Part shown: positions 6,736-27,317 of the stretch, piece after piece
Layout: each line of letters begins with the position of its first letter
How positions within the stretch are numbered: the stretch's first letter is position 1
Assembly: GCA_903959175.1 (NCBI GenBank)
Contig: CAJBVW010000203.1
Coordinates: forward strand, 1 to 45,026
DNA: 45,026 nt
DNA from: an uncultured Pseudomonadota bacterium
GTDB taxonomy: Bacteria; Myxococcota_A; UBA796; SXON01
Direction: 5' to 3'
Made by a program: the position numbers and the translations under genes
The notes under the pieces: model-generated
Database searches by the model: none
Told to the model about the DNA's origin: nothing
The model's input: the letters and a program-made list of their open reading frames with translations, nothing else

Positions 6736-6770
6736 GGGAGGCTCCTTGTGGGGCGTGGGGGAGGGTCGGT

Positions 6771-7847
6771 TCAGGCGGCGGGCGGGGTGCCCGTCGACGG
6801 AGGGGTCTGGGCCGTTCCACCGGCGGCCTCGTTCAGCATCCCGGCGAGCTCCCTGCGGGTCTTCTCGTTGCGCAGGAGCTTTCGGACGTCCGGGTTGCGG
6901 ATGGCCTCGGTCAGCTCGGGCGAGGCGGCGATGATCTCCGCGAGCTCGGCGAGCTCCGGCGGCATCCCGAACTTGGAGGTGGCGAGGGCGCGGCCCAGCG
7001 TGCCCAGTTCGGCGATGAAGGTCTTGCCGAGCTCCTCGCGGACGCGGGAGTCGTTGCCCTCCTGCCGCTCGAGGTTGCCGGCCTCGGCGAGCCCGACGCG
7101 GAGCTTCACGAGCTCGCCGGTCACCGAGTTGAGCCCGTGCTGGAGGTGCTGGATGCGCTGGTCCTGGTTGGAGAGCGCGGTGTTCTGCAGATGGGCGAGG
7201 TGGGCGTAGGTGGCCTGGAGCAGCCCGACGAAGTTCGTGTAGCCCTCCCCCAGCGCGCGCCAGGTGCGCGACTCGGGGAGGTTCTCGGTGCCCGGCGCGG
7301 GCGCGACGGGCATGACGGTGGGGGCCGGCGGCGGGAAGGGCACGACGGTGCCGCGCGCGGGCTCGCCGCCACGGTCGAGGTCGTTCACGCTGAACCGGCA
7401 GGCGTGCAGCGTGCGGTGGCCCTTGGCCGAGTGGACACGGATCTTGAAGTCTCGCGCCTGCTCCCCGCCCATGTTGGCGGCGACGGTGTAGCGGACCCAG
7501 CGCATCGCCGCGTGGGCGAGCTGTTCGAGCGACGGGAGGGAAGAGTCGGGGAGGCCGAGGTCCGCGAGCCGGGGATCATCCTCGCCGTGCTCGTCGTCCT
7601 CGTCGTGGTCCTCGATCTCCTCTCCCTCCTCGTCGCCCGCGGGCTCCACGCCCCGACCGGCCCGGCTCAGCGGCGGGCGGTCGTCGCGCAGGTACCCGGC
7701 GAGGTGGCCGGTGTTGAAGTCGACCCGAGCCAGCACGCGGTCGTTGTTGCGATCCACGATCTCGCAGAGCGCGATGTACCCGATCTCCGCGCGCAGCTCG
7801 TGGATGCGCCGCTCGGTGTCGGTCAGGTCGTTGAACACCAGATCCAT
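6771..7847 (-). CDS. Hypothetical protein
   Basis: 358 aa; acidic linker EEGEEIEDHDEDDEHGEDD; helical/coiled-coil-like C-terminal half; first gene of the minus-strand operon. Confidence 0.7.
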   Translation of the reverse strand: MDLVFNDLTDTERRIHELRAEIGYIALCEIVDRNNDRVLARVDFNTGHLAGYLRDDRPPLSRAGRGVEPAGDEEGEEIEDHDEDDEHGEDDPRLADLGLPDSSLPSLEQLAHAAMRWVRYTVAANMGGEQARDFKIRVHSAKGHRTLHACRFSVNDLDRGGEPARGTVVPFPPPAPTVMPVAPAPGTENLPESRTWRALGEGYTNFVGLLQATYAHLAHLQNTALSNQDQRIQHLQHGLNSVTGELVKLRVGLAEAGNLERQEGNDSRVREELGKTFIAELGTLGRALATSKFGMPPELAELAEIIAASPELTEAIRNPDVRKLLRNEKTRRELAGMLNEAAGGTAQTPPSTGTPPAA

Positions 7848-9536: not shown

Positions 9537-10151
9537 ATGAGCACCGCCCTCCAGAAGGCCATCTCCGGTGAGAAGGTCCCCGAGAGCAAGAAGAACGGCA
9601 TCCTCCACGAGGCCCTCGACAGGGTCAAGAGCCTCGGCGGCCGCATGGCCAAAGCCCGCGAGCTGTCCGAGACGCTCGCCGACTCGGTCATCGCCACCGC
9701 GGAGACCCAGGGCACCGTCTTCGCCTCGAGCTTCGCCGAGGGCTACTTCGGCGAGGAGAAGATGGACGTCGGGCCGGTGGATCTGCGCCTCGGCGGAGGT
9801 CTCCTGCTCGGCGGCTACGGCCTCTACCAGACGATGTCCGGCAAGGGCGGAAGCCACAGCCTCGCCATCGGCAACGGCCTGCTCGCCACGGGCATCGGCC
9901 GCATCGGCCGCCACGCCGGCAAGGCCCTCGCCGACAAGAAGAGCGCTCCCGCAGCGCCCCCCGCGCAGGCCCCGGCCGCCGCCGCGCCCGTCCCGGTCAC
10001 CGCGGGCATTCCCGCCATCGCGGCCGACGACATCGGCGAGATCGCCCGGATGGTCCGCATGACCCCCGGCACCGAAGGCGAGCGCGTCGCCCGCGACCCG
10101 GTCGATGGCCGGCGCCACCGCCGCGGCCGCTTCATCCGCGAACGCGACTGA
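9537..10151 (+). CDS. Putative structural/membrane-associated protein
   Basis: MSTALQKAISGEKVPESKK...; Gly-rich hydrophobic segment LRLGGGLLLGGYGLYQ; preceded by AAGGA RBS; first gene of the plus-strand operon. Confidence 0.65.
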   Translation: MSTALQKAISGEKVPESKKNGILHEALDRVKSLGGRMAKARELSETLADSVIATAETQGTVFASSFAEGYFGEEKMDVGPVDLRLGGGLLLGGYGLYQTMSGKGGSHSLAIGNGLLATGIGRIGRHAGKALADKKSAPAAPPAQAPAAAAPVPVTAGIPAIAADDIGEIARMVRMTPGTEGERVARDPVDGRRHRRGRFIRERD

Positions 10152-10204
10152 TCCCAACTCCCAGCTTCGAACCCACCTATCCGACTGAACAAGGAACAAC
10201 TCCC

Positions 10205-10945
10205 ATGACCGCTCCTCTCTGGGCCCTCGTGACCTTCACCGCCGCCGGGGAATGCCTCGTCGACCGCACCTCGCTCCGCGCCTCCCTCGACGGGTTCCGC
10301 TCCACCAACGCCCCGAGCTTCGGGTCGGACTTCGACGGCGACGACGACGACGACTTCGGGGACGACCTCGGGGACGACCTCGGCAACGACGTCGGCGACG
10401 ACCTGGGCGACGACCTGGGCGACGACCTCGGCGACGACCTCGGCGACGACCTCGGCGACGACCTCGGCGACGACCTCGGCGACGAGATCGGGATGACGCC
10501 CGCGCAGCGCAAGCGCCGCCGCCTCGCGCGCCGGCAGAAGCGGCTCGAGGTCAAGAACCAGCGCCTCCAGCGGCGTCTCCGCAAGGCCAACAAGGGGAAG
10601 GTCGTGCAGCGCAACGTCACCGTGACCGGATCGGTCGCCACCTCCGTCGGCCAGTCCATGAGCGTGACCCTCACGCCCCGGACCAGCCTCCACCTGTCCA
10701 AGATCTTCGCGACCGGCGACACCAGCTCGACGATCAACACGATCATCTCGGGCGACGACCCGGTGGTGCTCGACAACCTCGACGCCGCGCTGCTCGCGCC
10801 GACGGCCTACCACGGCCCCGGCTTCGAGGGCCGCGTGCTCAAGGCAGGCGTCCCGGTCACCATCAACTACACGGCGGGCTCGACGACCACCGCGCTGAAG
10901 CTGTCCTTCTACGGCAAGGCGCGCGTCAAGTCCCCGCGTTGCTGA
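10205..10945 (+). CDS. Putative virion-type protein: acidic GDDL repeat, basic segment, beta-rich C-terminus
   Basis: 246 aa; (GDDL)n then RKRRRLARRQKRLEVKNQRLQRRLRKANKGK then a beta-rich domain; AAGGAACAAC leader. Confidence 0.65.
   Translation: MTAPLWALVTFTAAGECLVDRTSLRASLDGFRSTNAPSFGSDFDGDDDDDFGDDLGDDLGNDVGDDLGDDLGDDLGDDLGDDLGDDLGDDLGDEIGMTPAQRKRRRLARRQKRLEVKNQRLQRRLRKANKGKVVQRNVTVTGSVATSVGQSMSVTLTPRTSLHLSKIFATGDTSSTINTIISGDDPVVLDNLDAALLAPTAYHGPGFEGRVLKAGVPVTINYTAGSTTTALKLSFYGKARVKSPRC
10358..10489 (+). repeat. 12-bp tandem repeat encoding GDDL
   Basis: Eleven consecutive 12-bp units (consensus GGCGACGACCTC): GDDL x2, GNDV, GDDL x7, GDEI. Confidence 0.95.
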
Positions 10946-10962
10946 TCGGACGGGGGTGAGCC

Positions 10963-11589
10963 GTGGGCGCCTGCAAGCTCTCCCGACGCTCCGGCACGGC
11001 GAAGCTCTCCGCTTCGCCGACCGCCGGGGTGGCCGGGACCGAAGGCGAGGTGCTCACGGCCCAGTCCGAGGGCCAGGGCGAGGGTGACTGGCGCATCCTC
11101 GACCTCTGGTCCGACGAGGGTTCCCCCTGGGAGGCCCGCGTCGTCTGGTCCGGTGGCGGGGGTGCGCTCCGCACGGCGCTCGTCAACGTGCCGAAGTGCG
11201 TCCGGGTCTGCGTCCACGCCACGATGATCCAGGTCTTCGGGGCGAACCTCTCGACCTCGGCGAACATCCAGGCGCGCGCGGCGATCGCCGACGGGTACTG
11301 CGACACCGAGAACCAGTGGACCGTTCGCGGCAACGTGCTGGCCCAGGGGCAGACGGTCAGCGCCGCCCCTCCGCCGTGGGCGAAGTTCGCCCGCCTCGAG
11401 CTGTCGGACAACACGCTCCTCGCCACGGCCTTCGTCGAGCTCCTCGACGCGAACGGCACCGCCCGTGGCCGGTACGCCGGCAACGCCCAAACGCAGCCGG
11501 GCGCGCCCATCGGCGATGCCGCCACCGTCCGCCTGGTGCTCCCCGGCGGCACCTACGCCTACCGCCTCGTCTTCCTTCTCCACCTCTGA
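10963..11589 (+). CDS. Hypothetical beta-rich protein (putative structural)
   Basis: 208 aa, GTG start, between other putative structural genes. Confidence 0.6.
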   Translation: MGACKLSRRSGTAKLSASPTAGVAGTEGEVLTAQSEGQGEGDWRILDLWSDEGSPWEARVVWSGGGGALRTALVNVPKCVRVCVHATMIQVFGANLSTSANIQARAAIADGYCDTENQWTVRGNVLAQGQTVSAAPPPWAKFARLELSDNTLLATAFVELLDANGTARGRYAGNAQTQPGAPIGDAATVRLVLPGGTYAYRLVFLLHL

Positions 11590-11607
11590 TTTCCGAGGGC
11601 CTTCGCC

Positions 11608-12021
11608 ATGAAGTGCTACCCCAACCGATTTGGCACCAAGCTCCTGAGCATCCCGTCCACGGCGCAGGTCAACGTCACCACCAACGGGACCGCCTACCGC
11701 GTGTTCCCCGACGAGAACGACGGCCAGTCCAACGCCGCCCAGGACTACAAGGTCGTGGCGACGATGAACGTTGCAGGCGGCACCTCGCCCACCGCGCAGC
11801 TCATCCTCCAGGGCTCCGTCGACGGCAGCACCTGGATGGACATCGCCCCCGGCGCCCAGCGCTCGGCGGCCGGCACCTACAACGAGATCCTCGACCCGGC
11901 GAACGTCGGCGTCCTGCCCTGGGTCCGCGCCCGCCTCGTGCTCGGCGGCACCGCCCCCCCGAACGTGGACCTCACCGTCGAGCTCGTCTCGACCGGCGGC
12001 TTCCAGCTCGCGACCTCCTGA
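11608..12021 (+). CDS. Hypothetical beta-rich protein (putative structural)
   Basis: 137 aa, alternating hydrophobic strands, few charged residues. Confidence 0.65.
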   Translation: MKCYPNRFGTKLLSIPSTAQVNVTTNGTAYRVFPDENDGQSNAAQDYKVVATMNVAGGTSPTAQLILQGSVDGSTWMDIAPGAQRSAAGTYNEILDPANVGVLPWVRARLVLGGTAPPNVDLTVELVSTGGFQLATS

Positions 12022-12055
12022 TCCCCCAACCCTCGCATCCCCCCCGGACGTCGTC

Positions 12056-12637
12056 GTGAACATCACGGTCGCCCTCACCTTCAACGAACGCGACGCGGTG
12101 AGCCTGCTCAACTGGCTCGCCCGCTGCAACGCGCGCCTGCTCCGCGAGCGGCCGTCGCTGCCGTTGCTGTACGCGACGAGCGTTCGCTACGGGCGGGAGG
12201 AGGAGGAGACGTGGTCCGACTTCATCCAGCTGCTCGCGCAGGGCTGGGAGGACTGCGACGCGCTCGCCGCGGCACGCGCGGGTGAGCTCATCGCCCGCGG
12301 ATGGCGCGCCCTCTCCCCGCGCGACCCTGGCTACGCAGCCGCGAAGGCGGCCCGCCTTGAGTCCATCCCCGCCGAGGTCGCGCTGACGACCACGCTCCGC
12401 CCCGGCGAGCACGGCCTCTACCACTGCATCGTCCGCTACACCGTGGCCGGCACCGCCTGGTTCGACGACCCCTCGGCGCGCCTCGGGATGCTCCCCGAGC
12501 GCCTCGACGGGCAGGCGTGCCACGAGCGCATCGTCACCCGCGTCCGCCTCGCCGGCCTGCGCCGCGACCCCGAGCAGGCGCGCCGCCGCCCCCACCGCAC
12601 CCACCACGCGCGCCGCCCGCGGCGCCGGGAGTCCTGA
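12056..12637 (+). CDS. Transglutaminase-like cysteine peptidase-fold protein
   Basis: GTG start; GWEDCDALAAARAGELIARGW resembles the Cys motif of transglutaminase-like proteins, followed by GLYHCIVRYTVAGTAWFDDPS (candidate His and Asp). Confidence 0.55.
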   Translation: MNITVALTFNERDAVSLLNWLARCNARLLRERPSLPLLYATSVRYGREEEETWSDFIQLLAQGWEDCDALAAARAGELIARGWRALSPRDPGYAAAKAARLESIPAEVALTTTLRPGEHGLYHCIVRYTVAGTAWFDDPSARLGMLPERLDGQACHERIVTRVRLAGLRRDPEQARRRPHRTHHARRPRRRES

Positions 12638-13443
12638 TGACCGCCTCCTCTCGCTTCATCCGTGCCCGCGTCGTCGGACGCGTCGAGTTCGCCGGCGACG
12701 GCGACACCTTCGTCGCCGGGCCCCGGCGCAAGCCCTCGAAGAAGGACCGGCAAATCCGCCGCCTCCTGCGGAAGGCGCGCGCCCTGAAGAAGCGCATCGC
12801 CCACCTCCGCATCCGCAAGCCGCTCGGCTGGAAGGGCGCGGTCAAGAGCGCCAAGACCAACCTCCGCGTGGTCATGAGCGACCTCAAGGCGCTCGGCTGG
12901 AAGCCCAAGCGGCCCGCTCGGGCGCGGAAGCCCGGCGAGGACGAGATGGACGCCGCCCTCGAGGAGATCCCCGAGGCCGAGCCCGGCGAGCCGGACGAGG
13001 ACATCGAGGAGCTCCCCGACGCCCCGGAGGAAGGCCCTTCGACCGAGGGCAACTGGCTCGACGGCTACGTCGGCGCCGACCCGGTGAAGAAGCCGAAGAA
13101 GAACCTCTGGCAGGAGGCGGGCAAGCTCCTCGCCGCGAAGTGGAGCGCCCCCGTTCCGCTCGGCGACGGCGCGCGCATCCAGACCCGGCCCGGCCAGCGG
13201 GCGATGGTCGCCACCGTCCGCCCCGGCCTGTTCATCGTGCAGCTCGTGTCCGACGACGCGGCGAAGAAGATCGCCGGGGACAACGTGGGCGTCCTCCCGC
13301 TGCTCCTCTACCCGCTGGTCAAGAACCAGGTGCAGAAGGCGCTGGCCCCGAAGCCCGCGGCCCCCGCCGCGCAGCCCGGCGCAGCCCCGGCCCAACCCGC
13401 CGCCGCGGGCGACCTCGGCTGCGACTACCCGAAGCGGAGCTGA
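12637..13443 (+). CDS. Hypothetical protein, basic N-terminus and acidic linker
   Basis: MTASSRFIRARVVGRVEF...; stop-start overlap with upstream gene; Pro/Ala-rich C-terminus. Confidence 0.65.
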   Translation: MTASSRFIRARVVGRVEFAGDGDTFVAGPRRKPSKKDRQIRRLLRKARALKKRIAHLRIRKPLGWKGAVKSAKTNLRVVMSDLKALGWKPKRPARARKPGEDEMDAALEEIPEAEPGEPDEDIEELPDAPEEGPSTEGNWLDGYVGADPVKKPKKNLWQEAGKLLAAKWSAPVPLGDGARIQTRPGQRAMVATVRPGLFIVQLVSDDAAKKIAGDNVGVLPLLLYPLVKNQVQKALAPKPAAPAAQPGAAPAQPAAAGDLGCDYPKRS

Positions 13444-13445
13444 CC

Positions 13446-14105
13446 GTGGCCACCTTCACCCTCCCGGTCAGCGCCGACGCCGTCCTCGCGCGGATGAACG
13501 ACATGCGGATCACCGCCGAGCAGTCGCTCGCGAGCGTCGAGGCCTACGCCAAGACCAACGTGCAGGCCCTCGCGCGCATCGTGCTCGGCTACCGCACCGT
13601 CGTCGCCGACACCGGCGCGCGGCTCGTGCGCCTGCAAGTCGCGGTCACCCAGGCGCTCGCGGCCAAGCCGGGCGACCCGACGCTCACGGCGCTGCTGAAG
13701 CGCACCGTCGAGATGCTCACCGCATGGAGCGCCCACGCGAAGGGCTACACCCAGTACGAACGGCCCGCGACCGCCGCGGAGAAGGGCGAGGCCGTGTCCG
13801 TCGGGTGGGCGGGCGTCGTCATCGCCGTCGCCGTCGCGGGCGCCGTCATCGCCGTCTCCTTTACCGGCGTGGCGTGGGCCGTCGTCCACTACAAGCACGC
13901 GCAGACCCTCTCGGACGAGGTCGCCATCGTCGAGCGGAACCCGGCGCTGGCGGACGCCCTCGCCCGCATCAACTCCACCGCCCCGAGCGCGCCCACGACC
14001 GACCCCGCCAACCCCGGCGGCGGCGGCGGCTGGGGCTGGCTCCTCGCCGCCCTCGGCGTCGCCGGGGCTGCCGTCTACCTCCTCCCCAAGTGGGGCAAGG
14101 GCTGA
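13446..14105 (+). CDS. Putative membrane protein with two TM segments
   Basis: GTG start; VGWAGVVIAVAVAGAVIAVSFTGVAWAVV and GWGWLLAALGVAGAAVYLLPKW. Confidence 0.65.
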   Translation: MATFTLPVSADAVLARMNDMRITAEQSLASVEAYAKTNVQALARIVLGYRTVVADTGARLVRLQVAVTQALAAKPGDPTLTALLKRTVEMLTAWSAHAKGYTQYERPATAAEKGEAVSVGWAGVVIAVAVAGAVIAVSFTGVAWAVVHYKHAQTLSDEVAIVERNPALADALARINSTAPSAPTTDPANPGGGGGWGWLLAALGVAGAAVYLLPKWGKG

Positions 14106-14109
14106 TCCC

Positions 14110-15636
14110 ATGAGCACGACCACCCACGAGCGTTTCCGCCTCCAGTTCGTCGGCGCCGACGAGGACGTGCCGCGCCTCCTGCTCGCCTACGGGCGCGCGT
14201 GCGGGGGCGAGATCGCCTTCGTCATGCGGCCCCGCGACAACCTCGCGCTGCTCGTCCACCAGGTGAAGAAGCAGCCCGCGAAGGTGTGGCGCACCGACCT
14301 CGGGCTCGCGCCCTCGCACCCGCCGGAGCTCGACATCGACGCGACCGCCGCCGTCGCCGAGATCCGCACGATGAAGGCGAGCCCGTCCCCAGCGGGCCCC
14401 GCCACGCTCAAGGGCAAGTGGGCCGGCGTGCTGGTGTGCGACAACGGCACGCCGCGTGTCACGCTCGAGCGCAAGGTCGCCGCCTACGGCACCCTCCAGC
14501 TCGTGTCGCTCGCGGACGGGCGCTGGCAGGCGCGCTTCGACCGCGCCGCCCGCTGGTTCAGCAAGGCCCGGCAGGAGACCGTCGAGCGGTCGAGCCTCGC
14601 CGACGCCATCACGGCGGGCATGGGCCTCGTCGTCGGGCTCGTGAGCGAGGCGTGCAGCTTCCGCGACACCCGGCGCCGCAACACCGTCGATGCCGAGTAC
14701 GCCACCCAGCACCCCTACACCCCGCCGCGCGAGGCGAAGGACCCCACCGAGCGCTACGCGCCGCGGTCCTCCTTCCGCGCCGTGGCGCAGGCGGACGGCT
14801 GGGTGGTGGTGAACGAGGTCGGCGCCGTCGTCGCGCGGTTCGGCCTCCGCGAGAAGGGCAAGGCCACGAAGCACGCCAGCGCCCTCACCCGCGGGAAGGA
14901 GGACACGCGATCCGTGTCCTCCTCGCCCTCGGCGTCCGTCACGCCGGACATCGCGTCCGCGTTCGGAATGACCGGGATGCCGGGCCTCTCGCTCGTGCCC
15001 GCGCTGGCCGACGTGCCGATGCCCGACTCCCCGGTCGGCGCCCCCGCGCTCGGGCGCGAGGCGACCGCCACCGAGGCCGAGGCCGACGCGCTGGTCGAGG
15101 AGGCCAAGGAGAGCTGGGGCGCCGCCGACGCGCCCGCGCTTCTCGGCCGAGCCGCCAAGCTGCTCCGCCACGCCGAGGCGCTGGTGAAGTCGCCGCGCTG
15201 CATCGGTCCCGAGCAGAAGATGGCGTGGGAGGACCTGCGCCGGGGCGCCGACGCCTACACCCAGGCCCGCGATGCCCTCCTCCGTGGGGAGAAGCCCGAC
15301 ATCGTGACCACGCTGCGGCGCATCGCCGAACGCGTGTCGCTGGCCGCCGCCCGCGCGGCGAAGTCGTGCGCCGCCGGGCAGCAGAAGATCGGGAAGGCGG
15401 CCCGGTCCTCGGCCGACATCGCGGCCGGGATCACCGTCCGCGAAACGCCCTTGGTGACGATGCAGCCCGTATGGCCGCCCGCCGCCGCGCCGCAGTCCGT
15501 GCCGACGACGACGAAGCCACCGCGGACCCGGAAGGCGAAGGCCCCCGAGGTGGACCCGGCGAAGGACCAGGCGCTCGTCAACGCCTTCGCGGACGCCATC
15601 AAGCAGGCCGCGCAGGCGATGGGAGGTGGGGCGTGA
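14110..15636 (+). CDS. Hypothetical protein
   Basis: 508-aa ORF overlapping the next gene by GTGA. Confidence 0.7.
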   Translation: MSTTTHERFRLQFVGADEDVPRLLLAYGRACGGEIAFVMRPRDNLALLVHQVKKQPAKVWRTDLGLAPSHPPELDIDATAAVAEIRTMKASPSPAGPATLKGKWAGVLVCDNGTPRVTLERKVAAYGTLQLVSLADGRWQARFDRAARWFSKARQETVERSSLADAITAGMGLVVGLVSEACSFRDTRRRNTVDAEYATQHPYTPPREAKDPTERYAPRSSFRAVAQADGWVVVNEVGAVVARFGLREKGKATKHASALTRGKEDTRSVSSSPSASVTPDIASAFGMTGMPGLSLVPALADVPMPDSPVGAPALGREATATEAEADALVEEAKESWGAADAPALLGRAAKLLRHAEALVKSPRCIGPEQKMAWEDLRRGADAYTQARDALLRGEKPDIVTTLRRIAERVSLAAARAAKSCAAGQQKIGKAARSSADIAAGITVRETPLVTMQPVWPPAAAPQSVPTTTKPPRTRKAKAPEVDPAKDQALVNAFADAIKQAAQAMGGGA

Positions 15637-15890
15637 GCCGCTGGTTCCTCGTTACCGGCCCGGCGCTGCTGCTCCTGTCGTGCGCGGTCGCGTTCGCCCA
15701 GGATGGGGGACCGGTTCCCGGCCCCGCGAGTTCGATGCCGAGCGCCGACTTCTTGCTCTCGATGGGGCCCTACGGGGCGCTCGTCTGGGGGGCCTACCTG
15801 CTCGGGAAGGGGGTGAAGGTCACGGTGCAGATTGAGCTTTCGGAGCGAGATCGCGAGCTGATCGAGCAACTTGGGAAGGAGGCGGCGTGA
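15633..15890 (+). CDS. Small membrane protein, holin-like
   Basis: 85 aa; hydrophobic N-terminus plus second TM SMGPYGALVWGAYLLGKG and a charged C-terminal tail; GTG start overlapping upstream stop. Confidence 0.5.
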   Translation: MSRWFLVTGPALLLLSCAVAFAQDGGPVPGPASSMPSADFLLSMGPYGALVWGAYLLGKGVKVTVQIELSERDRELIEQLGKEAA

Positions 15891-16671: not shown

Positions 16672-19600
16672 ATGAACGCCGCCGCCCAACTCCTCGACGC
16701 CATCGTCCCCATCGTCCGCACGCGCCTTCCGCGCGGCGTCGACGTGGACTACCTCGACGACTTCCTCGACCGGAACCGCTTCGCCCTCGAGGCGGTCATC
16801 GAGCAGAACCTCGGGCCGCTCCTCGCCCGCATGCAGGTGGCGAACCGCCCCTTCGCGCCCGACGAGGACATCCCCGAGCTCTGGACCGCGAGCAAGCGCA
16901 CCGCCGCCAACATCGCCGCGATGGCCACCGCCGCCGCCCTCTACGCGCAGCGCCGCCTCCCCAACGCCGACGAGCGCGCCGTCCTCGCCGGGTACTCCGG
17001 TTGGGGCGGGCTCTCCATCGAGGCGGCCTCCGGCAAGTTCCCGCCGGGCTTCCCCGCGCCTGAAACCCGCGGACTCATTCATGAATTCTACACGCCGAGC
17101 AAGGTGGCGAAGGAAGTCGCGCGCGTCGTCGCCCCGCTCGTCCACGCCCTCCCGCAGGACGGCGAGACGGTCCACGCGCTGGAGCCCTCGGCGGGCATCG
17201 GCCGCTTCCTCCGCGCGTTCGAGGCGGTCCCCGGCCTGACGTGGCACGCCGTCGAGTGGTCCACGCTCTCCTCGCTGATGCTGAAGGCGCTCCGGCCCGA
17301 CCTCGACCTGACCAACGCCCCGTTCGAGCGCTGGGTGCGCGAGAAGGGCGCGGGGGCCGCCGGCCGCCTCGGCCTGGTCGTCTCCAACCCGCCCTACGGC
17401 ATCCGGGGCGCGTCCGTCGCGGAGGACCCGGATCGGGCCTACCGCGAGAAGATGGCGTACCACTACTTCCTCCGCCGCGGGCTCGACCTGCTTGCCCCGG
17501 ACGGGCTGGGCGTCTTCCTCGTCCCCGGCGGCTTCCTCACGAGCCGCACCGCGCAGTTCACCGCGCTCCGAGAGAAGGTGCTGAAGCGCCACCACCTCGC
17601 CGCCGCGTACCGCCTCCCGAGCATCAACGAGAAGGGCCGCGAGGCCATCTTCCCCGGCGCGATGCTGGTCACCGACCTGCTCTTCTTCCGCGCGCGCGGG
17701 GGCGAGCTCGACGCAGTGGACGCCTCCGACGCGGAGATCGTGGCCGGGGGCTACTTCCGGCAGTTCCCGCGCCACATCCTCGGTCGCGAGGTCGGCGAGG
17801 ACCACGGCGAGGACGACCAGACCTCCAAGCCCCGCTGGGGCTACCAGGTCCAGGGCGAGTTCACCCGCCTCCCCGACCTCGTGGAGCGCCCCGTGTGCGG
17901 CGACTGCAAGGTCGTCGCGTTCCCGTCCCGCGGGAAGCAGGCCGCGGACGCGGCGCCAGCCGGTCGCGTGGGCGTCACCCGCGTCACCGAGGCTGACGTC
18001 ACCGACCTCCCGCGCGAGCTCGCCAGTGCGGTCCTGCTCGGCCTCCGGGTAGACCGCTACCTCGCGCTCGTCGCGGCGGAGAACGCCGAGGAGCCGCCCC
18101 TCCTCTGGCCGGAGCTCCACGCGGCGCTGACCTCGTGGCACGCGAGCAACGGCAATCCGCACGCCAACGTCGACCTCGTGAAGCTCGCCCGCGGCGGCAA
18201 CACCGGCGCCGAGCGGTTCCTCTCCGCCTTCGACCGCGCCGGCCACCTGATCGACGGCCTCCGGCGCAAGCCCCCCGTGTTCGAGCCCCGCTACACCGGG
18301 CGCGTCGACGACGTGGTGGCGCAGGCCGAGCACCTCTACCGGACGGCGCGCATGCTCTCCGTGCGCGAGCTGGTGGAGTACCACACGAGCCTCGGCGGGC
18401 CGTTCGCGCCCGACCAGGCGCGGGCGAAGGTCCTCGCCGCAGGCTGGTGCCTCGACGGTGACACCTGGGACGAGCTCTTCCCCGCCGAGGTGTACCTCAC
18501 CGGCGCGCTCTGGCCGAAGATGGACCGGGTGATGGCCCGGCCCGCCGACGCGCAGGCGAAGGCCCAGGTCCAGCGCCTCCTCGACGCGATCAAGCCCGCG
18601 ATCTTCGACGACATCGAGGGCGTGAGCGCCCGGCAGGGCTGGGTGCCGCTCGACCTCGTCGCGGAGTGGGTGAACAGCACCTACACCGGGTACGACGACG
18701 TCACGTTCGTGCGCCAGGGCGGCCTCGTGGCGCCGAAGGGCTGGCAGTACGACCAGATGTCGAAGAAGGGAAACGCCGGGGAGATGCACCCCGAGGTGTT
18801 CCTCATCCTCGGCTGGATCAACCACGACAAGACGATGTTCTCGCCGTCCAAGAAGTTCGACGACGACAACGAGAAGGACATCGACAAGCTCCGCATGAAG
18901 AAGGCGGCCGAGTGGGACGCCAGCTTCAAGGGCTTCGCCGGGGCGACGCCCGAGCGTCGTCTCGCCATCGAGCACGCCTACAACCGGCAGTTCCGCGGCT
19001 ACGTCGCCCCGACGTACACCGCCGAGCCGCTGTCGATCGCGCGCTGGAAGAAGGACGGTCCGCGCCTGCACCCCCACCAGGTCGCCGGCGCCCGACGCGT
19101 CCTCGCCAACCGGGGCGGCCTCCTCGCCTTCGACGTGGGCGTCGGCAAGACGTACACGGGCATCGCGACGCTCGCCCGCGCCCGCCAGGAGGGCTGGTGC
19201 AAGCGGCCGGTCGTGCTCGTCCCCAATTCCATCGTGTGGAAGTGGGAGGCGGACATTCGCCGGGTGCTGCCCGACTACCGCATCGCCGTCATCGGCTCGA
19301 AGAAGAAGGTCATCAGCCGCGGAGAGCGGAAGGGTCTCGCGACGAGCGACACCGACACGCCGCAGGAGCGCGCCGAGAAGTGGACCCGGTTCCAGGCCGG
19401 CGAGTACGACGTGGTGCTGCTGACCTACACCGCGCTCGGGCGCACGCGCATGAACGAGAAGGCCGTCCGCGTCTACGCGGAGCAGTGCGAGGCCATCCAG
19501 CGCGAGGTGGCGCTGCGCCGTCGCAACGCGGCGAAGCGGAAGAAGCTCTCCGAGCGCGACGAGGCCATCCTCCGCGAGGGCATGGCCGCCTGGGTCGCCC

Positions 19601-21822
19601 AGCAGATGGAGCTCGCCGACGGCTGGGAGTACGACCCCGGCATCGCGTGGGACGACATCGGCGTCGACCTCCTCATCGTGGACGAGGCACAGAACTATAA
19701 AAACCTGTATCTACCCGAGGATCGCGAGGGCGGTGTCCCCCGCTTCATGGGCAACCCGGGCGACGGCTCCAAGCGCGCGTGGCAGCTCGACTTCCGGTGT
19801 GCGGCCGTCCGCCGCAAGACCGGCGGCGGCGGCGTGGTGCTCCTCTCCGCCACCCCGGCGAAGAACAGCCCGCTCGAGTTCTACAACCTGATCCAGTACG
19901 TCGACCCCGACGCCTGGCGCCGGATGGGCATCCGCGACCCGGAACAGTTCATCGACCGGTACCTCCGCATCGAGATCAAGCCGGTGGTGACCCCGAGCAT
20001 GGAGGTCGAGGAGCGCGGCGCCGTCGTCGGGTTCCAGAACCTGCACGAGCTGCGCGACACCATCCTCCGCTACGGCGAGTTCAAGACGGCCGAGGACGTC
20101 GGCCTGAAGCTCCCCGAGCCCAAGGTCGAGATGGTCGAGGTCGACATGGACGCCGGCCAGGACGCCAAGTACGACCGCTACGTCCGCGAGATCGAAGCCG
20201 CGCTGAAGTCGGACGACCCCGGCGAGAAGGCGAAGATCCTCGGCCTGCTCGCCCGCATGGCACTGGTGGCCATCCACTCCCAGCTCGACCAGGGCTACGG
20301 GTGGAAGAACGCCGAGCAGGTGAGCGACTCCAACTCGCCCAAGTTCGAGGCCCTCGCCGAGCGGGTGCTGGCGAACCGGACGTGCGGCCACATCGTGTTC
20401 GTCGACAACGTGGCCGCCCACCGCTGGGTCAAGATGGTGCTCGTCAACGCGGGCATCGCGGCCGACCGCATCGGCGTCCTGAACGCCGAGGTCGCGCCCA
20501 ACGCCGCCGACCGCCAGCGCATCGCCAAGGAGTTCAACGGCGAGCCCGAGACGGAGACCGCGCCGAAGTTCGATGTCGTGATCGCCAACGCCATCGCCTA
20601 CGAGGGCATCGACCTCCAGACGCGCACCTGCGCCATCCACCACCTCGACCTCCCGTGGGAGCCGGCCACGCTCCAGCAGCGCAACGGGCGCGGCGTGCGG
20701 CAGGGAAACACCCTCTCCGCCATCGCAATCTACTACTACTTCGCGCGCCGCAGTCAGGACGGGCTCCGCTTCAACCTCATCCAGGGGAAGCGCGGGTGGA
20801 TGACGGAGCTGCTCAAGTCGCAGAACCGGGACACCAACAACCCCGGCGCGCAGATGGACATGGGGCCGGAGGAGATCCTGCTCCTCATCTCGCGCAACCC
20901 CGAGCAGACCCGCGCCCGCCTCGAGGCCGTCCGCGCCCAGCGTGAGGCCGAGGCGAAGAAGAAGATCGCGACCGAGGCGTCGAAGCTCCTCCGCGCCATC
21001 AACGCCCGGTTCCGCAACGCGGAGCGCACCCGCGACGGCGTGGAGGCCGCGCGTCTCCGCGGCGAGGCGGAGGAGCGGCTGAAGCACCTCGCGCGCGTGA
21101 ACGTCGAGGCCTGGCCGTGGGCCGCCGCGAGCGTCGTCGTCCGCGAGACGCCCGTGCTCGTCCCCGAGGGCGGCGGGCCGCTCTACGAGGGGCTCCGGGT
21201 CGGCGTCCCGAGCGCGTGGAACGCGAGCAAGGTCGACTACGTGGAGTTCGGCAAGGTCACCAAGGACGGGCAGATCGCCTTCCGCGCCGCCGGGGAGGCC
21301 GGGTGGAAGCTCCTAAGGGCCGACTCGGCGCAGTTCGCCGCGCTCAAGCCCGAGCACTACGGCGTGACGTTCCCCGCCGACGAAGAGGGCTTCACGCTGA
21401 AGGCCGTGGGACAGGTCGCCGGCGACCGCCTCCGCTACTCCGGCGACTGGCCCGGCCTCGGCTGGCACCACGCCCCCGACGACTGGGTCGAGCGCACCTG
21501 GCCGCAGGTCGCGGACACCGTGGTCGGGGCACTCGCGAAGGTCAGCTACTACAACCAGCAGGCGCAGAAGATCCCCGTCGTGGCGCCCACCGGCATGCGG
21601 ATCGTCAACGCCGGCGCGGCCAACGGTACCGCCGGGGTCACCGTGCTCGCGCCCACCGAGAGCGGCTGGCGGGCGTTCCTCGACGCGGCCCCGTCCAGCG
21701 GCCTGAAGTTCGGCGAGCTCGCCGAGGCCGGGCGCTGGTGGTGGGGGCGGACGATCCCGCGGAACCTGCTCTCGGCCGACGAGGGCGAAGAAGGCGACGA
21801 CGCGTCCCGGGTGGCGTCGTGA
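16672..21822 (+). CDS. DarB-like adenine-specific DNA methylase-SNF2/DEAD helicase fusion
   Basis: 1716 aa; MTase motifs EPSAGIGRF and SNPPYG; helicase motifs FDVGVGKTYT, LIVDEAQNYKNLY, LLSATPAKNSP, QRNGRGVRQGN. Confidence 0.88.
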   Translation: MNAAAQLLDAIVPIVRTRLPRGVDVDYLDDFLDRNRFALEAVIEQNLGPLLARMQVANRPFAPDEDIPELWTASKRTAANIAAMATAAALYAQRRLPNADERAVLAGYSGWGGLSIEAASGKFPPGFPAPETRGLIHEFYTPSKVAKEVARVVAPLVHALPQDGETVHALEPSAGIGRFLRAFEAVPGLTWHAVEWSTLSSLMLKALRPDLDLTNAPFERWVREKGAGAAGRLGLVVSNPPYGIRGASVAEDPDRAYREKMAYHYFLRRGLDLLAPDGLGVFLVPGGFLTSRTAQFTALREKVLKRHHLAAAYRLPSINEKGREAIFPGAMLVTDLLFFRARGGELDAVDASDAEIVAGGYFRQFPRHILGREVGEDHGEDDQTSKPRWGYQVQGEFTRLPDLVERPVCGDCKVVAFPSRGKQAADAAPAGRVGVTRVTEADVTDLPRELASAVLLGLRVDRYLALVAAENAEEPPLLWPELHAALTSWHASNGNPHANVDLVKLARGGNTGAERFLSAFDRAGHLIDGLRRKPPVFEPRYTGRVDDVVAQAEHLYRTARMLSVRELVEYHTSLGGPFAPDQARAKVLAAGWCLDGDTWDELFPAEVYLTGALWPKMDRVMARPADAQAKAQVQRLLDAIKPAIFDDIEGVSARQGWVPLDLVAEWVNSTYTGYDDVTFVRQGGLVAPKGWQYDQMSKKGNAGEMHPEVFLILGWINHDKTMFSPSKKFDDDNEKDIDKLRMKKAAEWDASFKGFAGATPERRLAIEHAYNRQFRGYVAPTYTAEPLSIARWKKDGPRLHPHQVAGARRVLANRGGLLAFDVGVGKTYTGIATLARARQEGWCKRPVVLVPNSIVWKWEADIRRVLPDYRIAVIGSKKKVISRGERKGLATSDTDTPQERAEKWTRFQAGEYDVVLLTYTALGRTRMNEKAVRVYAEQCEAIQREVALRRRNAAKRKKLSERDEAILREGMAAWVAQQMELADGWEYDPGIAWDDIGVDLLIVDEAQNYKNLYLPEDREGGVPRFMGNPGDGSKRAWQLDFRCAAVRRKTGGGGVVLLSATPAKNSPLEFYNLIQYVDPDAWRRMGIRDPEQFIDRYLRIEIKPVVTPSMEVEERGAVVGFQNLHELRDTILRYGEFKTAEDVGLKLPEPKVEMVEVDMDAGQDAKYDRYVREIEAALKSDDPGEKAKILGLLARMALVAIHSQLDQGYGWKNAEQVSDSNSPKFEALAERVLANRTCGHIVFVDNVAAHRWVKMVLVNAGIAADRIGVLNAEVAPNAADRQRIAKEFNGEPETETAPKFDVVIANAIAYEGIDLQTRTCAIHHLDLPWEPATLQQRNGRGVRQGNTLSAIAIYYYFARRSQDGLRFNLIQGKRGWMTELLKSQNRDTNNPGAQMDMGPEEILLLISRNPEQTRARLEAVRAQREAEAKKKIATEASKLLRAINARFRNAERTRDGVEAARLRGEAEERLKHLARVNVEAWPWAAASVVVRETPVLVPEGGGPLYEGLRVGVPSAWNASKVDYVEFGKVTKDGQIAFRAAGEAGWKLLRADSAQFAALKPEHYGVTFPADEEGFTLKAVGQVAGDRLRYSGDWPGLGWHHAPDDWVERTWPQVADTVVGALAKVSYYNQQAQKIPVVAPTGMRIVNAGAANGTAGVTVLAPTESGWRAFLDAAPSSGLKFGELAEAGRWWWGRTIPRNLLSADEGEEGDDASRVAS

Positions 21823-22787
21823 GCCGGGCCAACAACACCCCGCTGCTGCTCGGCGCCGGGGCCATCGGGCTGCTGGTCCTCGCCGCGGCCGCGTCGCCCT
21901 CGGGACGCCGGGCGGCCAAACAACTGGAGGAACGTGTGGAGAGCTTCGTGACCGATTGGATTCCAACCCTGCTCCGCAAGACGAGCCAGCACGAGGGCAA
22001 CTTCTGGTCGGTCCAGGAGAACAAGGACGGCAACGGCGTCAGCTACGGCATCCTTCAGTGGACGCAGAAGTCGGGCTCCCTCGGCGGCCTCCTCCGCGCG
22101 ATGGCCGATGCCGACCCGTCCGAGTTCGCGCGCATCTTCGGGCCGAGCTGGCGGAAAGTGCTCGACGTGACCGCGCGCGCCAGCATGGAGCCGGTGGACG
22201 GCGTGGCGCTCTGGGCCGGGGACTGGGTGGGCCGCTTCGCGAAGGCCGGTCGCCTGCCGATCTTCCAGGAGGTCCAGACCCGCGTCGCCATCGCGTCCGA
22301 CTACATGAGCGGGGCCATCGAGATCGCCCGCCTGCTCGGTGTCCGCTCCGAGCGGGCGATGACCATGTACTACAACCGCACCGTCCACCAGGGCGCGAGC
22401 GGCGCGCTCGGGCCCGCGAAGCGGCTCGCCGCCTGGTACGCCGAGGACCCGACGCGCCGCCCGGCCGAGCCCAAGGACGTGCTCGCGCAGTACGCCTGGA
22501 CCTGCGCCTCGAAGTTCCGCCGCACCACCCCGCCCGCGCGTCGGAACTACAACGACGACGGGAACATCTGGTGGTCCCCGGTGGCGACCGAGTGGAGCGA
22601 GCTCGGCATCGGCAACCACCGCGTCCGCCGCGTGGCCGTCTCCGGCGTGTGGCACGCCCTGACCGGCCCGCCGTCGAAGCCGTGGAGCCTCTACGACCTC
22701 ATCACGAAGCGGTCGAGCGACATCCTCACCGACCCTACCCTCCGCGATGCGCCAGTGGACCTTGGCGTCGCCAAGCTCGCGGGTTGA
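21819..22787 (+). CDS. Membrane-anchored lysozyme/transglycosylase-like protein (putative endolysin)
   Basis: N-terminal TM LLLGAGAIGLLVLAAAA; SQHEGNFWSVQENKDGNGVSYGILQWTQKSGSL resembles the E...SYG..Q region of lysozyme-like peptidoglycan hydrolases; overlaps the upstream stop. Confidence 0.6.
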   Translation: MSRANNTPLLLGAGAIGLLVLAAAASPSGRRAAKQLEERVESFVTDWIPTLLRKTSQHEGNFWSVQENKDGNGVSYGILQWTQKSGSLGGLLRAMADADPSEFARIFGPSWRKVLDVTARASMEPVDGVALWAGDWVGRFAKAGRLPIFQEVQTRVAIASDYMSGAIEIARLLGVRSERAMTMYYNRTVHQGASGALGPAKRLAAWYAEDPTRRPAEPKDVLAQYAWTCASKFRRTTPPARRNYNDDGNIWWSPVATEWSELGIGNHRVRRVAVSGVWHALTGPPSKPWSLYDLITKRSSDILTDPTLRDAPVDLGVAKLAG

Positions 22788-22802
22788 CAGATGCTCGCCG
22801 AC

Positions 22803-23462
22803 CTACGGATGAGTGATCCGCCAAGCCTTGGTGGCTGCGACAGTTTGGTTGACAACGCGCCAGGCTCGTCGGGAGGACCGGAGGTAGTAATCTCCCCCGG
22901 TCTTCGCCTTCTCGAAGAGGTGCACCGCATTCCGCGTGCCACGGAGCCACTGTGCGTCACGACGGAGGTCGTCATCGATGATCGCCTCGTCGGAGGCGAC
23001 AGCGATGTACCAGTAGAACGACCGCTTCGGGAGCACGTCGTCGACGTTTGTTGGCGTAAGGAGCGCCGTCGTTTGTGCATTCTTCGGCGGGTCCTTGAAA
23101 CGGTGCGCCTGCCCCTGGAGGTACCCCTTGATGACGGCGTGGCGCAGGGACTCGCCCAGCAGTGCCTCGACGATCGCGGCGTAGTCGATCAACTGCGTCC
23201 GGATGTGGGCGCTTCGCTCCATCCCATCAACGAGCGTCGCCTTGCTGAGTCCGTATATCCACCGGGCACCGTACAAGGTCGCAGCGAGCGTCGTCCGAAG
23301 CGCAGGGTCACCGACGTGGGCGAATTCCAGTTTTTCAAAGCCCGCGACAGTGCCCGCGTCGCGTCGTGCGAAGCCTCGCACGACCTCCATCAGGCCCTCA
23401 CCCAGGATCTCCTGGACACGCTCCTTAGAAGCCGGAGCGGGAGAGGCAGGTACAGTTGGCAT
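22803..23462 (-). CDS. Hypothetical protein, possible HEPN-like domain
   Basis: 219 aa; RGTRNAVH fits Rx4-6H; surrounding sequence looks helical; antisense single gene. Confidence 0.45.
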   Translation of the reverse strand: MPTVPASPAPASKERVQEILGEGLMEVVRGFARRDAGTVAGFEKLEFAHVGDPALRTTLAATLYGARWIYGLSKATLVDGMERSAHIRTQLIDYAAIVEALLGESLRHAVIKGYLQGQAHRFKDPPKNAQTTALLTPTNVDDVLPKRSFYWYIAVASDEAIIDDDLRRDAQWLRGTRNAVHLFEKAKTGGDYYLRSSRRAWRVVNQTVAATKAWRITHP

Positions 23463-23535
23463 GTAGATCGCATCTCCGCATGGTCGAGGCCGCCACGTAC
23501 ACCGTGTGGCGGAGCGACGCCATCGGGAGGCGGCA

Positions 23536-24555
23536 GTGCGGACCCTTGACCTGTTCGCGGGCGCGGGCGGGGCGGCACTCGGCCTCCACGAGGCCGGCTT
23601 CGAGCACGTCGCCTGCGTCGAGCGCGACCCCTCGGCCGCCGCGACGCTGCGGGCCGCGGGCTTCCCCGCCGTCGAGGCCGACGTGCGCGACCTCGACTAC
23701 GCCGCGCTCGCTGGCACCATCGACGTGCTCTGGGCTTCGCCGCCCTGCCAGGCGTGGTCGCAGGCCAACCAGCACGCTCAGCGGAAGGGCGCGGCCGACG
23801 TAGAGCGCAACGGCTGGCCGTGGACGCTCCAGGTCGTGCGGGTCGTGCGGCCGCGGTGGGCGATCTTCGAGAACGTGCGGAACGCCCGGCCCTACGTCGA
23901 CCGGTACGTCGTCCCCGAGCTGCGGAAGCTCTACTCCCACGTCTCCGTGTGGCTGCTCAACGCCGCCGACCACGGCGTGCCGCAGAGCCGCACCCGGCTC
24001 TTCGTCGTCGCCGGGCCGCGCCCGGTCGCGGCGCCGCCCATCGCCCCGCGGCGGACGATGCGCGACGCCATCGCCGTGCCGTGGGACCGGCCCGCGCCGT
24101 GCGTGATGACGAACGAGTGGAAGGGCCGCCCGACCGACCCGTCGTGGTGGAAGAAGCTGAACAACGCGAGCGACGCGCTCGCCATCGCCACGAAGGGCGC
24201 CCGGCGCAAGCTGACCCTCGGGGAGTGCGCGGCGCTCCAGACCTTTCCCGCCGGCTACCCCTTCGCGGGCGCCGTCGAGGACCGGTACCGGCAGGTCGGC
24301 AACGCCGTCCCGCCCACCCTCGCCGCCGCCGTGGCCCGTGCGATCCGGGTCGCCGAGGAGGGCGCCGCCACCATCCGCGAGAGCCTGCCGGCCCTCGGCG
24401 CGTTCGCCGACCGGGTGCTCGCTCGAGCGGTGGCGCTTCTGCGCGCCCATCCGCCCTATGGGATCGACCCCGAGGACGTGGACGGGTTCGTCGCGCGCCA
24501 CGGGGACCGGCTCCGCGACCTCGTCACCACCACCCTGAACCGGAGGGCCCCATGA
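23536..24555 (+). CDS. DNA (cytosine-5) methyltransferase
   Basis: RTLDLFAGAGGAALGLHEAGF, SPPCQAWS, IFENVRN, QVGNAVPP; GTG start assumed (ORF opens at 23506). Confidence 0.88.
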   Translation: MRTLDLFAGAGGAALGLHEAGFEHVACVERDPSAAATLRAAGFPAVEADVRDLDYAALAGTIDVLWASPPCQAWSQANQHAQRKGAADVERNGWPWTLQVVRVVRPRWAIFENVRNARPYVDRYVVPELRKLYSHVSVWLLNAADHGVPQSRTRLFVVAGPRPVAAPPIAPRRTMRDAIAVPWDRPAPCVMTNEWKGRPTDPSWWKKLNNASDALAIATKGARRKLTLGECAALQTFPAGYPFAGAVEDRYRQVGNAVPPTLAAAVARAIRVAEEGAATIRESLPALGAFADRVLARAVALLRAHPPYGIDPEDVDGFVARHGDRLRDLVTTTLNRRAP

Positions 24556-27317
24556 CCTGCCCCTGCCAACACGCCCTGCCCGTCCCCGGCGCCTTCCCCA
24601 AGGCCGCCGGCCGCCTCTCCATCGACCGCGCCGCGCTCCGCCGCGAGCTCGCCGACGACGCCAGTATTCGCGAGGCGATGACCGCCAAGGCGACGGGCCG
24701 CCCGTCCGCGAATGTGTCGGTCCTCTGGGGATACTTCACAAAGGCCGTTTACAAGTCGGGCGACCTCCCGTGGCTCGCCACCCGCGAGGCCCTCCAGAAC
24801 AGCATCGACGCCGTGAAGGCCGCCGTCCGCGCCCGGAAGATCAAGTCCGAAGATGGCTTCTTCGGCGTCCGGTGGAACGAGGAGGAGCGCTCCCTCTCCT
24901 TCGAGGACAACGGGATCGGCATGGACGCGGACACCGTACTCACCAAGTTCCTGTCCATCGGCGAGAGCGGGAAGCGCGACGCCGCCGACTCGAGCGAGGC
25001 CGCGGGCGGCTTCGGCGTCGCGAAGGCCGTGATCCTCGGCGTGTCCCGGTCGTTCCGCTGGCGGATGCACACCCGCGACAACCTCGCCGTCGCCGATGGC
25101 GCCGACGCCGAGGTCCGCATCTTCGACGCCGAGCCGCGCGCCGGGACGGTCCTGACCGTCTACGACGTCGACCCCGACTTCATCCGCTACTGGGACCGCG
25201 CCCGCGGCGTGTACGTCGGCGTCGAGGACCGCCTCCGCGAGCTCCTCGCTGCCAACGACCTCCCCGGCATCCGCCTCTACTTCGGCGACGAAGAGGTGAA
25301 GCCGATGTTCAGCCGCCGGGGCGGCTCGCGCGTGTCGGTCGAAGGCTCCTGGGGCGAGGGCACCACCGCAACCGTCAAGGCGTACCGGCGCGCGCCTGGC
25401 GACCGCGGAGGCGCCTACTACCTGCGGCTCGGAGGCCTCTTCCAGTTCAAGGTGCCCGCCCAGCGGAACGGGCTGAAGGCCGACGTCGTGGTCGACCTCA
25501 CCACGACCGTGCGCCCTGGCCAGCGCGGCTACCCGATGAACGCCGCCCGCGACGGCCTGCAGGACCAGGCGCAGTGGACCTTCTCCGACCTCGTGGACGA
25601 AGTGGAGCGGGAGAACGAGTCCGTCGGACGGAGCGAGGACGACGAGTTCCTCGACGCCGACGACGACGACGCCGACGGCGGGCAGGAGCTCGCCGACCAG
25701 ATGGCGGAGGCCTTCGCCGACCAGGACGTGCGGAAGGCCATCGCCGCTGCAGCGGGCGGCATCGCCGATTTCTACGGCGAGCAGGCGAAGTACGCAGGAG
25801 TCGAGGAGCCGGTGGCCTCGCTCGCCCCGCGCGGGAGCAAGGCGGTGCAGGACGGCGACGCCCCCGAGCGCGCCTGGGTGCTCCCCGCCGGAATGACCGT
25901 CGCCGCCGGCACCACCCCGGTGGAGGCCGACGCCGAGGCCCCGTCCAACGTCCAGGCCGCCAAGGTGCTCCGCGCCGTGCTCACCGAGGCCGACGAGGCG
26001 GGGCGCGCCGCTGGCGGCATCCGCACGGTCATGGTCACCGAGCAGGTGGACCAGGCGCTCCGCCGCGCCGAGGTCGGGCAGGACCTCGACGGCTGGCAGG
26101 CGCAGGCGGTCGAGGCCGCCATTGAGCGCGCGGCCGAAGCCGCCCTCGCCCCCGGCGGCGGCGGGCTGATCCAGGCCGTCTCGGTGTCGAGGGCCACCGG
26201 CGCGCTGGACGCCCTCGTGCCGAAGTGGGCGAAGGCGCTCGACCGCGCCGAGGGCCGCAAGGTGCGGAACCCCTTCGGGAAGTTCGCCGGCATGCGGATC
26301 AGCAAGAAGACCTACGACCGCCAGCGCGCCTACCGCTTCCGCAAGGGCTACGCGAAGTGGCTGCCGCACCTGCTCGCCTGGGACGGCACGCTCCGGCTCG
26401 TCGCCGCCGAGGCCCGCATCCGCCGCACCTTCCGCCCGGGCTTCGTGCTCGACGACAACGTCGTCGCCGAGGCCGTCGAGCGTCCCGGCGGCAAGCGCTT
26501 CCTCTTCATCCACCCCGACCGTTTCGCGCAGGTGGTGAAGGCCCACAAGGAGCGGCCGCTCGCGGTCGCGGCGTTCCTCCACGGCGTCGCCGTCCACGAG
26601 CTCACGCACCTCGATGGACTTATGGGCGAGGGCCACTCGGAAGAATTCGTGGCGCGCCGTGAGGATCTCGGCGCGGCGACGGCCCACCTCCTGCCCGCGA
26701 TCGCGGTCCTCGTCGGGAAGCTCCTCGGCGTGGGCGAGCGCGAGAGCGAGGAGGCGAAGCGGGTCGCGCGGCTGGAGCGGGAGCTGGAGAAGGCGCGGGC
26801 GACGGTGAAGGAGCAGCGGGCGCGGATCGTGGAGATGGAGCGAGGCGCTGCCCCCACGCGCACCGAGGGCACGCGGCTCGTGTGGTCGAACCTGCGCGAG
26901 TGGCTCGACGCCTGGGCGGAGCTCCACCGACGGCGCATCAGCGGCGCCCGCATCGCGGCGACGCGGCAGCACGTCAACGCACTGACCGCCGCGGTCGTCG
27001 AGGGGGGCAGCGTCGACGAACTCGACGAGTTCGAGGGGGTGCTCGGGAGCGCGAACGTCACGCCGCCGCGGGGGCAGCGGGCGGGGCACCATACGACGCA
27101 GCTGAGGGACGCGATCGACCGGGCGCGGGTGCGGCAGCGCGGGCGGGGGCGGGTGGACCCGGAGCGGCTGCTCGAGGCCGCCGTCGGGGCGCTGCGAGCT
27201 CGGCCGCCGGCGGGGGTTAGCGCGGCGTATGTCGCGGGGTTCGTCGCGAGGAACAGGGCGGCGCTGCTGGGAATTGTGCGGGGGGCGTTCAACGCGGCAT
27301 GCCGGGCAGCCCCCTAA
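24552..27317 (+). CDS. GHKL (Hsp90/MutL-type) ATPase fused to HExxH metallopeptidase-like domain
   Basis: N-box REALQNSID, DNGIGM, GGFGVAKAV; C-terminal HELTHLDGLMGEGHSEEF; ATGA overlap with the C5 MTase gene. Confidence 0.8.
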   Translation: MTCPCQHALPVPGAFPKAAGRLSIDRAALRRELADDASIREAMTAKATGRPSANVSVLWGYFTKAVYKSGDLPWLATREALQNSIDAVKAAVRARKIKSEDGFFGVRWNEEERSLSFEDNGIGMDADTVLTKFLSIGESGKRDAADSSEAAGGFGVAKAVILGVSRSFRWRMHTRDNLAVADGADAEVRIFDAEPRAGTVLTVYDVDPDFIRYWDRARGVYVGVEDRLRELLAANDLPGIRLYFGDEEVKPMFSRRGGSRVSVEGSWGEGTTATVKAYRRAPGDRGGAYYLRLGGLFQFKVPAQRNGLKADVVVDLTTTVRPGQRGYPMNAARDGLQDQAQWTFSDLVDEVERENESVGRSEDDEFLDADDDDADGGQELADQMAEAFADQDVRKAIAAAAGGIADFYGEQAKYAGVEEPVASLAPRGSKAVQDGDAPERAWVLPAGMTVAAGTTPVEADAEAPSNVQAAKVLRAVLTEADEAGRAAGGIRTVMVTEQVDQALRRAEVGQDLDGWQAQAVEAAIERAAEAALAPGGGGLIQAVSVSRATGALDALVPKWAKALDRAEGRKVRNPFGKFAGMRISKKTYDRQRAYRFRKGYAKWLPHLLAWDGTLRLVAAEARIRRTFRPGFVLDDNVVAEAVERPGGKRFLFIHPDRFAQVVKAHKERPLAVAAFLHGVAVHELTHLDGLMGEGHSEEFVARREDLGAATAHLLPAIAVLVGKLLGVGERESEEAKRVARLERELEKARATVKEQRARIVEMERGAAPTRTEGTRLVWSNLREWLDAWAELHRRRISGARIAATRQHVNALTAAVVEGGSVDELDEFEGVLGSANVTPPRGQRAGHHTTQLRDAIDRARVRQRGRGRVDPERLLEAAVGALRARPPAGVSAAYVAGFVARNRAALLGIVRGAFNAACRAAP

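Follow-up and report, generated by a model that had tools for sequence, protein, structure and literature searches.

DarB of phage P1 is a head protein that is delivered together with the DNA (PMC5512222, PMC12810830, PMC9024508), and its N-terminal 30 residues are enough to bring a reporter into the capsid (PMC9024508). The authors of the P1 work had expected the Dar proteins to have a capsid address in common, but BLAST revealed none (PMC9024508). The window analysed here, a stretch of 45,026 nucleotides from an uncultured bacterium (assembly GCA_903959175.1), encodes a DarB-like protein, a C5 cytosine methyltransferase and a GHKL-type ATPase that each carry a copy of the same small terminal module (Table 1). 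An earlier note on this DNA had pointed out the three segments, suggested that such a common tag might stand for one complex or one address, and named as an analogy the Dar proteins, which travel in the virion. This analogy is stronger than its author knew, because a short N-terminal stretch of P1 DarB suffices for packaging (PMC9024508).

Table 1 Module copies, carrier proteins and neighbouring genes of the element in the window
Feature	Position	Strand	Remarks
Divergent left arm, three genes	5624..7847	-	Same order in C61, C270, G007:C3, G002:C70, G002:C93
Conserved block 9537, 10205, 10963, 11608, 12056, 12637, 13446, 14110	9537..15636	+	Synteny in dozens of loci; candidate particle proteins
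Small membrane protein, resembling a holin only in position and size	15633..15890	+	Homologues at the same place in G007:C3, G002:C93
DarB-like N6-methylase/SNF2 helicase, 1716 aa	16672..21822	+	Pfam and PHROG
Module copy 1	16690..16815	+	N-terminal residues 7-48 of the DarB-like protein
Membrane-anchored lysozyme-like enzyme	21819..22787	+	PF01374 1e-4 (under cut-off); N-terminal hydrophobic helix
C5 cytosine DNA methyltransferase, 349 aa	23506..24555	+	PF00145 2e-44
Module copy 2	24415..24540	+	C-terminus of the C5 cytosine methyltransferase
GHKL-type ATPase with HELTH (HExxH, zincin) motif, 921 aa	24552..27317	+	PF13589 4e-4, under curated cut-off
Module copy 3	27168..27293	+	C-terminus of the GHKL/HExxH protein

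Translation of the window at the positions in Table 1 reproduces the 42-residue segments quoted in the note, whose start at 16687 lies one codon ahead of the homologous part. The module is strictly terminal in all three proteins: it starts at residue 7 of the DarB protein, stops 4 residues short of the stop codon in the methyltransferase, and is followed by 7 residues before the stop in the GHKL protein. With an HMM built from the three segments, as had been proposed, they were recovered from the six frames of the window at 79-83, 81-83 and 74 bits, the next best match reaching 6 bits, and eight more copies were found elsewhere in the 7.2 Mb genome, on five further contigs. The trio is found again, in unchanged order, on contig C61 of this genome, and a search of the genome with the DarB segment alone recovers the GHKL segment and vice versa. 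By comparing per-family profiles (43 DarB, 14 methyltransferase and 32 GHKL non-redundant sequences; 41 columns aligned), we found significant similarity for all three pairs: DarB/methyltransferase (P 97.6%, E 2.7e-12, score 51), DarB/GHKL (P 99.0%, E 7.6e-18, score 72) and methyltransferase/GHKL (P 98.7%, E 3.7e-16, score 66). In 100 column shuffles per pair, 300 in total, the maxima were 14-17 against the real 51-72, a margin too large to be explained by the mild bias of taking profile members at the positions of the joint HMM. The claim of three ungapped homologous terminal segments is thus borne out, and the module is real and conserved. Since it is short and rich in alanine, leucine and arginine, and the genome is GC-rich, one could also think of chance or of generic helical filler, but the E-values of 1e-12 to 1e-18, the far lower shuffles, its retention over ~30 genomes and its near-absence outside the class make this vanishingly improbable; chance similarity is ruled out by the HMM search and the profile comparisons with their shuffles.

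Across 46 diverse copies, P14, G16, F25, R28 and L33 are near-invariant, and hydrophobic residues occupy positions 1, 2, 5, 6 and 9 as well as 22, 25, 26, 33, 36, 37 and 41. For the C-terminus of the methyltransferase, AlphaFold2 gives a helix (270-314), a turn or loop, and a second helix (322-345) with a pLDDT of about 80, and the module is accordingly predicted to be a helix-PxG-helix hairpin of ~42 residues; Foldseek, queried with this model, returned ordinary C5 methylases. Searches with the module yielded no significant match in Pfam (best E 0.059), which includes the families built from work on polyvalent proteins (PMC5512222), in PHROGs (best E 0.01, one member, a holin) or among PDB sequences (best E 0.61), and nothing meaningful matched in known phages and plasmids. 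The author of the note had not recognised a named domain either; an already known domain was not found in these three libraries, where the family appears to be undescribed.

A first profile, made from the 11 copies of the genome itself, matched in 31 of 56 relatives; a refined profile matched 31 of 63 genomes at the level of the order and 32 of 71 at that of the class. Outside the class, it matched 2 of the 306 other sampled genomes of the phylum, both weakly (E about 1e-7). The same trio, with the module at the N-terminus of DarB and at the C-termini of the C5 methylase and the GHKL/HExxH protein, recurs in an element of ~22 kb (32/71 class genomes), a length measured at about 22 kb in G007:C3. 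One genome (G012) has 23 module copies spread over many contigs, which would represent many diverged copies of the element.

Carriage was also counted in a set of loci defined independently of the module, by a scan of GTDB genomes for the GHKL core. This gave 39 loci, mostly from metagenome-assembled genomes labelled proteobacterium or Myxococcota, two of them with implausible Klebsiella labels; the single isolate among them is Nannocystis pusilla DSM 53165, whose element is a divergent one (L177). Among proteins with the relevant end intact, the module is present on 23 of 24 GHKL proteins (the exception is without the usual protein end), on 13 of 14 DarBs (the exception, from Nannocystis, has a recognisable divergent copy) and on 11 of 27 methylases. 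A second C5 methylase subfamily, 36-44% identical, occupies the same gene position and is without the module. The two subfamilies alternate between the lysozyme-like gene and the GHKL gene in many loci, and the module-less one ends in a short tail of another kind, ...ALRRNRLTVPAHLGAAP. Module identity is 0.59 within a family as compared with 0.30-0.41 between families, even inside one element, and sharing an element does not bring the lineages closer to one another. Judged by these identities, the module is inherited along with each protein family and not recently copied; the pattern, seen in few same-element pairs, stands against recent gene conversion among the three copies.

In the DarB-like protein, Pfam finds SNF2-rel (6e-17), Eco57I (6e-9) and Helicase_C (9e-9), and PHROGs the DarB-like antirestriction family (1e-72), so that an N6-adenine methylase and an SNF2-type helicase stand in one large chain, as is characteristic of this family; among the phage matches listed for its N-terminal 509 residues, none starts before residue 93. 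The motifs QNS.DA, DNGIGM, GGFGVAK and HELTH of the GHKL protein are invariant or nearly so in 12 homologues, a coiled-coil-like stretch lies ahead of its module (noise matches to Pfam Med21/Trimer_CC), and no relatives were found when sought in phages. Using a profile made from the trio alone, we detected further carriers, again with the matches at protein termini: a PAPS-reductase-like protein with an N-terminal module in two genomes (PHROG match 5e-17), a DpdA with a C-terminal module (PF23859 2e-14), a Mom-like DNA modification protein with an N-terminal module (PHROG 3e-11) and, by a weak module match, a protein with a JAB-like HNH..S..D motif. The DpdA, JAB-like and Mom-like proteins adjoin in one contig (G038:C7, L103), 3' of a module-less methylase. 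In Nannocystis pusilla, a divergent form of the module is visible by eye N-terminally in DarB and in a DUF3560 protein (PF12083 8e-27), and C-terminally in the GHKL protein. Nearly all identified carriers are DNA-modification or anti-restriction enzymes, with the module N-terminal in DarB, the PAPS-reductase-like and the Mom-like proteins and C-terminal in the methyltransferase, the GHKL protein and DpdA. Two further frames are of note: at L089 5846-8665 (G012:C84), the module of a GHKL protein runs on in frame into a hemerythrin-like HHE stretch, and at L098 13733-14584 a second PP-loop-like frame (ILVGFSGG), apparently frameshifted, has a weak N-terminal module.

In dozens of loci the genes follow one order: left arm, 9537-14110 block, small membrane protein, DarB, lysozyme-like gene, methylase and GHKL. 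The lysozyme-like gene is conserved in 55 loci; the small membrane protein had no match in a Pfam search. The spaces ahead of DarB and of the methylase vary in length between elements and are filled, in the window, by genes of unlike composition at 15920-16543 and 22803-23462, both on the minus strand. The protein of gene 10963 is modelled as an all-beta structure of 16 strands (pLDDT 87), for which Foldseek lists jelly-roll capsid or turret proteins at low TM-scores, PM2 P2 (E 3e-4, TM 0.30) and a turret protein of an archaeal virus (E 2.5e-4), among many beta-sandwich proteins, non-viral ones scoring similarly. Protein 10205-10945 contains a series of acidic DDLG repeats and is rich in beta structure at its C-terminus, and a fragment resembling its C-terminal part is found at 43349-43528. 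No relatives of gene 12056 were found in phages and plasmids, and no terminase, portal or known major capsid protein was recognised in the element. In the conserved genes other than that of the DarB helicase there is no Walker A motif, and so no sign of the packaging ATPase that a tailless jelly-roll phage would have. On these grounds we consider the element a candidate virus-like element only. Beyond it, at 29006-36121, lies a restriction island with a C5 methylase, an Eco29kI-type endonuclease (PF09517 3e-50), a GHKL ATPase, an Mrr-helicase fusion and Vsr, and in G002:C93 the element is flanked on its GHKL side by a comparable methylase/GHKL/nuclease-helicase set. Transposase genes are located directly after the GHKL gene (27435-28778) and at the left of the window (530-1936).

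One unit found at either end of unrelated enzymes, with each lineage inherited with its own enzyme, looks like a docking domain. The reading that we favour, and to which we give an even chance, is that the module gathers DNA-modification and anti-restriction enzymes at a common site, most likely the particle or the DNA that it delivers. The amphipathic module would pair into a helical bundle, either with a second copy of itself or with a single anchor protein, and the tagged enzymes, nearly all of them DNA-acting, would thereby assemble at one place in this Myxococcota mobile element, the most likely destination being its particle and the DNA that the particle delivers. The DarB methylase-helicase, the cytosine methylase and the GHKL/zincin protein would be loaded together, joined in relatives by the PAPS-reductase-like, DpdA and Mom-like proteins, and would then shield the DNA from restriction as it enters, like the P1 Dar proteins. 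This reading is supported by the mutual homology, by the near-universal carriage on DarB (13/14) and GHKL (23/24), by the detachable terminal nature of the unit, by carriers that differ chemically and mostly share DNA as their substrate, by the two predicted helices with their near-fixed positions, by the lysozyme-like gene and the conserved small beta-rich and membrane proteins of the element, and by the precedent of P1 DarB. The element may nevertheless not make particles, because the searches recognised neither a terminase or portal nor a packaging ATPase or capsid protein, and co-recruitment of the methylase would not be obligatory, because the second subfamily stands at the same position without the module. 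The suggestion of one complex or address made in the note is therefore the best reading of family-wise inheritance, near-universal presence on DarB and GHKL and the further DNA-modifying carriers, while the interpretation in the note as a whole, travel in a virion included, is supported in part.

While a particle is the destination we prefer, docking could also operate without packaging, if the enzymes were gathered in the producing cell on the replicating DNA of the element, or on a replication protein, and the progeny DNA were modified there. The carriers are DNA-modifying enzymes, a particle is unproven for the element, and C5-methylases and Mom-like proteins act on DNA inside the producing cell, which counts in favour of such a scheme. 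We nevertheless judge it rather unlikely, if a serious contender, given that the DarB-type proteins studied are components of the virion (PMC5512222) and that no replication protein was identified in the element as a possible hub. One could further speculate that DarB, methyltransferase and GHKL protein form one multi-enzyme machine by homotypic pairing of module with module, with no outside anchor; the presence of the same short amphipathic hairpin on all three proteins and the coiled-coil-like stretch before the module of the GHKL protein would agree with this, but module lineages that are family-specific and no closer within one element than between elements, together with a dispensable methylase copy, make it improbable.

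That nearly all identified carriers act on DNA could also mean that the module is a small DNA-binding domain, which raises the affinity of these enzymes for their substrate. The net charge of the module, however, averages almost zero and can be of either sign (DarB +0.2, range -3 to +5; methyltransferase +1.5; GHKL +1.8), and R28, the sole fully invariant basic residue, lies outside any basic patch. DNA binding is disfavoured by this charge pattern, to the point of being very improbable, and the amphipathic two-helix pattern combined with near-neutral charge fits protein-protein packing better.

Returning to docking at a particle, we can tentatively go one step further, with the balance somewhat against us, and propose that an undescribed virus-like element of Myxococcota uses the portable docking domain as a plug-in address, such that any DNA-modifying enzyme acquiring it, be it an adenine or cytosine methylase or a PAPS-reductase-like, DpdA or Mom-like enzyme, would be loaded with the DNA into the particle, and the anti-restriction payload could be exchanged by swapping tagged enzymes. 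With a single conserved module present on DarB and on several DNA-modification enzymes, a common address for an anti-restriction payload can be tested directly. If this holds, the module would be a small genetic tag with which enzymes are loaded alongside DNA, and also a signature by which new DNA-modification enzymes may be recognised; it has already led to the PAPS-reductase-like, DpdA and Mom-like carriers and, in its divergent form, to the DUF3560 protein.

Among known docking systems, the RIIa/Dpy-30 dimerisation-docking domains (PKA-RII, DPY-30) are alike by eye, with ~42 residues in a helix-turn-helix and an LL...R.PP...[FY]L..[FY]L.[RK]N[RK]-like pattern, and the likeness would suggest a four-helix docking bundle, a hairpin being predicted for the module. 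The Pfam models PF02197 and PF05186 matched no copy of the module, and hhalign gave a probability of 5.7%, with 2 of 200 shuffles scoring as high; homology is thus unsupported and we regard this as a resemblance only. In PKS/NRPS docking domains and in encapsulin cargo peptides, too, small helical elements at protein ends bring different enzymes into one assembly; the likeness to the module is one of general description, and they serve other enzymes in another biological setting. The capsid targeting sequence of P1 DarB, as also that of T4 internal proteins, is a short terminal address, as is proposed for the module, and on the DarB methylase-helicase both are N-terminal, but the P1 sequence and the module show no sequence similarity: P1 DarB has no module match, and the weak matches elsewhere in DdrB and Ulx are non-significant. 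Since P1 DarB is without a detectable module and the listed phage DarBs align only from residue 93, the address would be analogous, not homologous. Virion incorporation and protection of DNA in cis are known only for P1 (PMC5512222, PMC9024508), and for the present element virion incorporation is a proposal. No common signal can be recognised in the P1 Dar proteins; in the present element many proteins carry one and the same module, at either end. A parallel in enzymatic content is provided by the polyvalent proteins of phages and conjugative elements (Iyer et al. 2017, PMC5512222), which likewise comprise the DarB-type methylase-helicase dyad, zincin-type peptidases and anti-restriction activities of a mobile element. 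In polyvalent proteins these activities are fused in one chain, whereas in the present element they are distributed over separate chains, DarB with methylase and helicase, the GHKL protein with ATPase and HExxH, and the methylase with its one enzymatic domain, which share one small domain.
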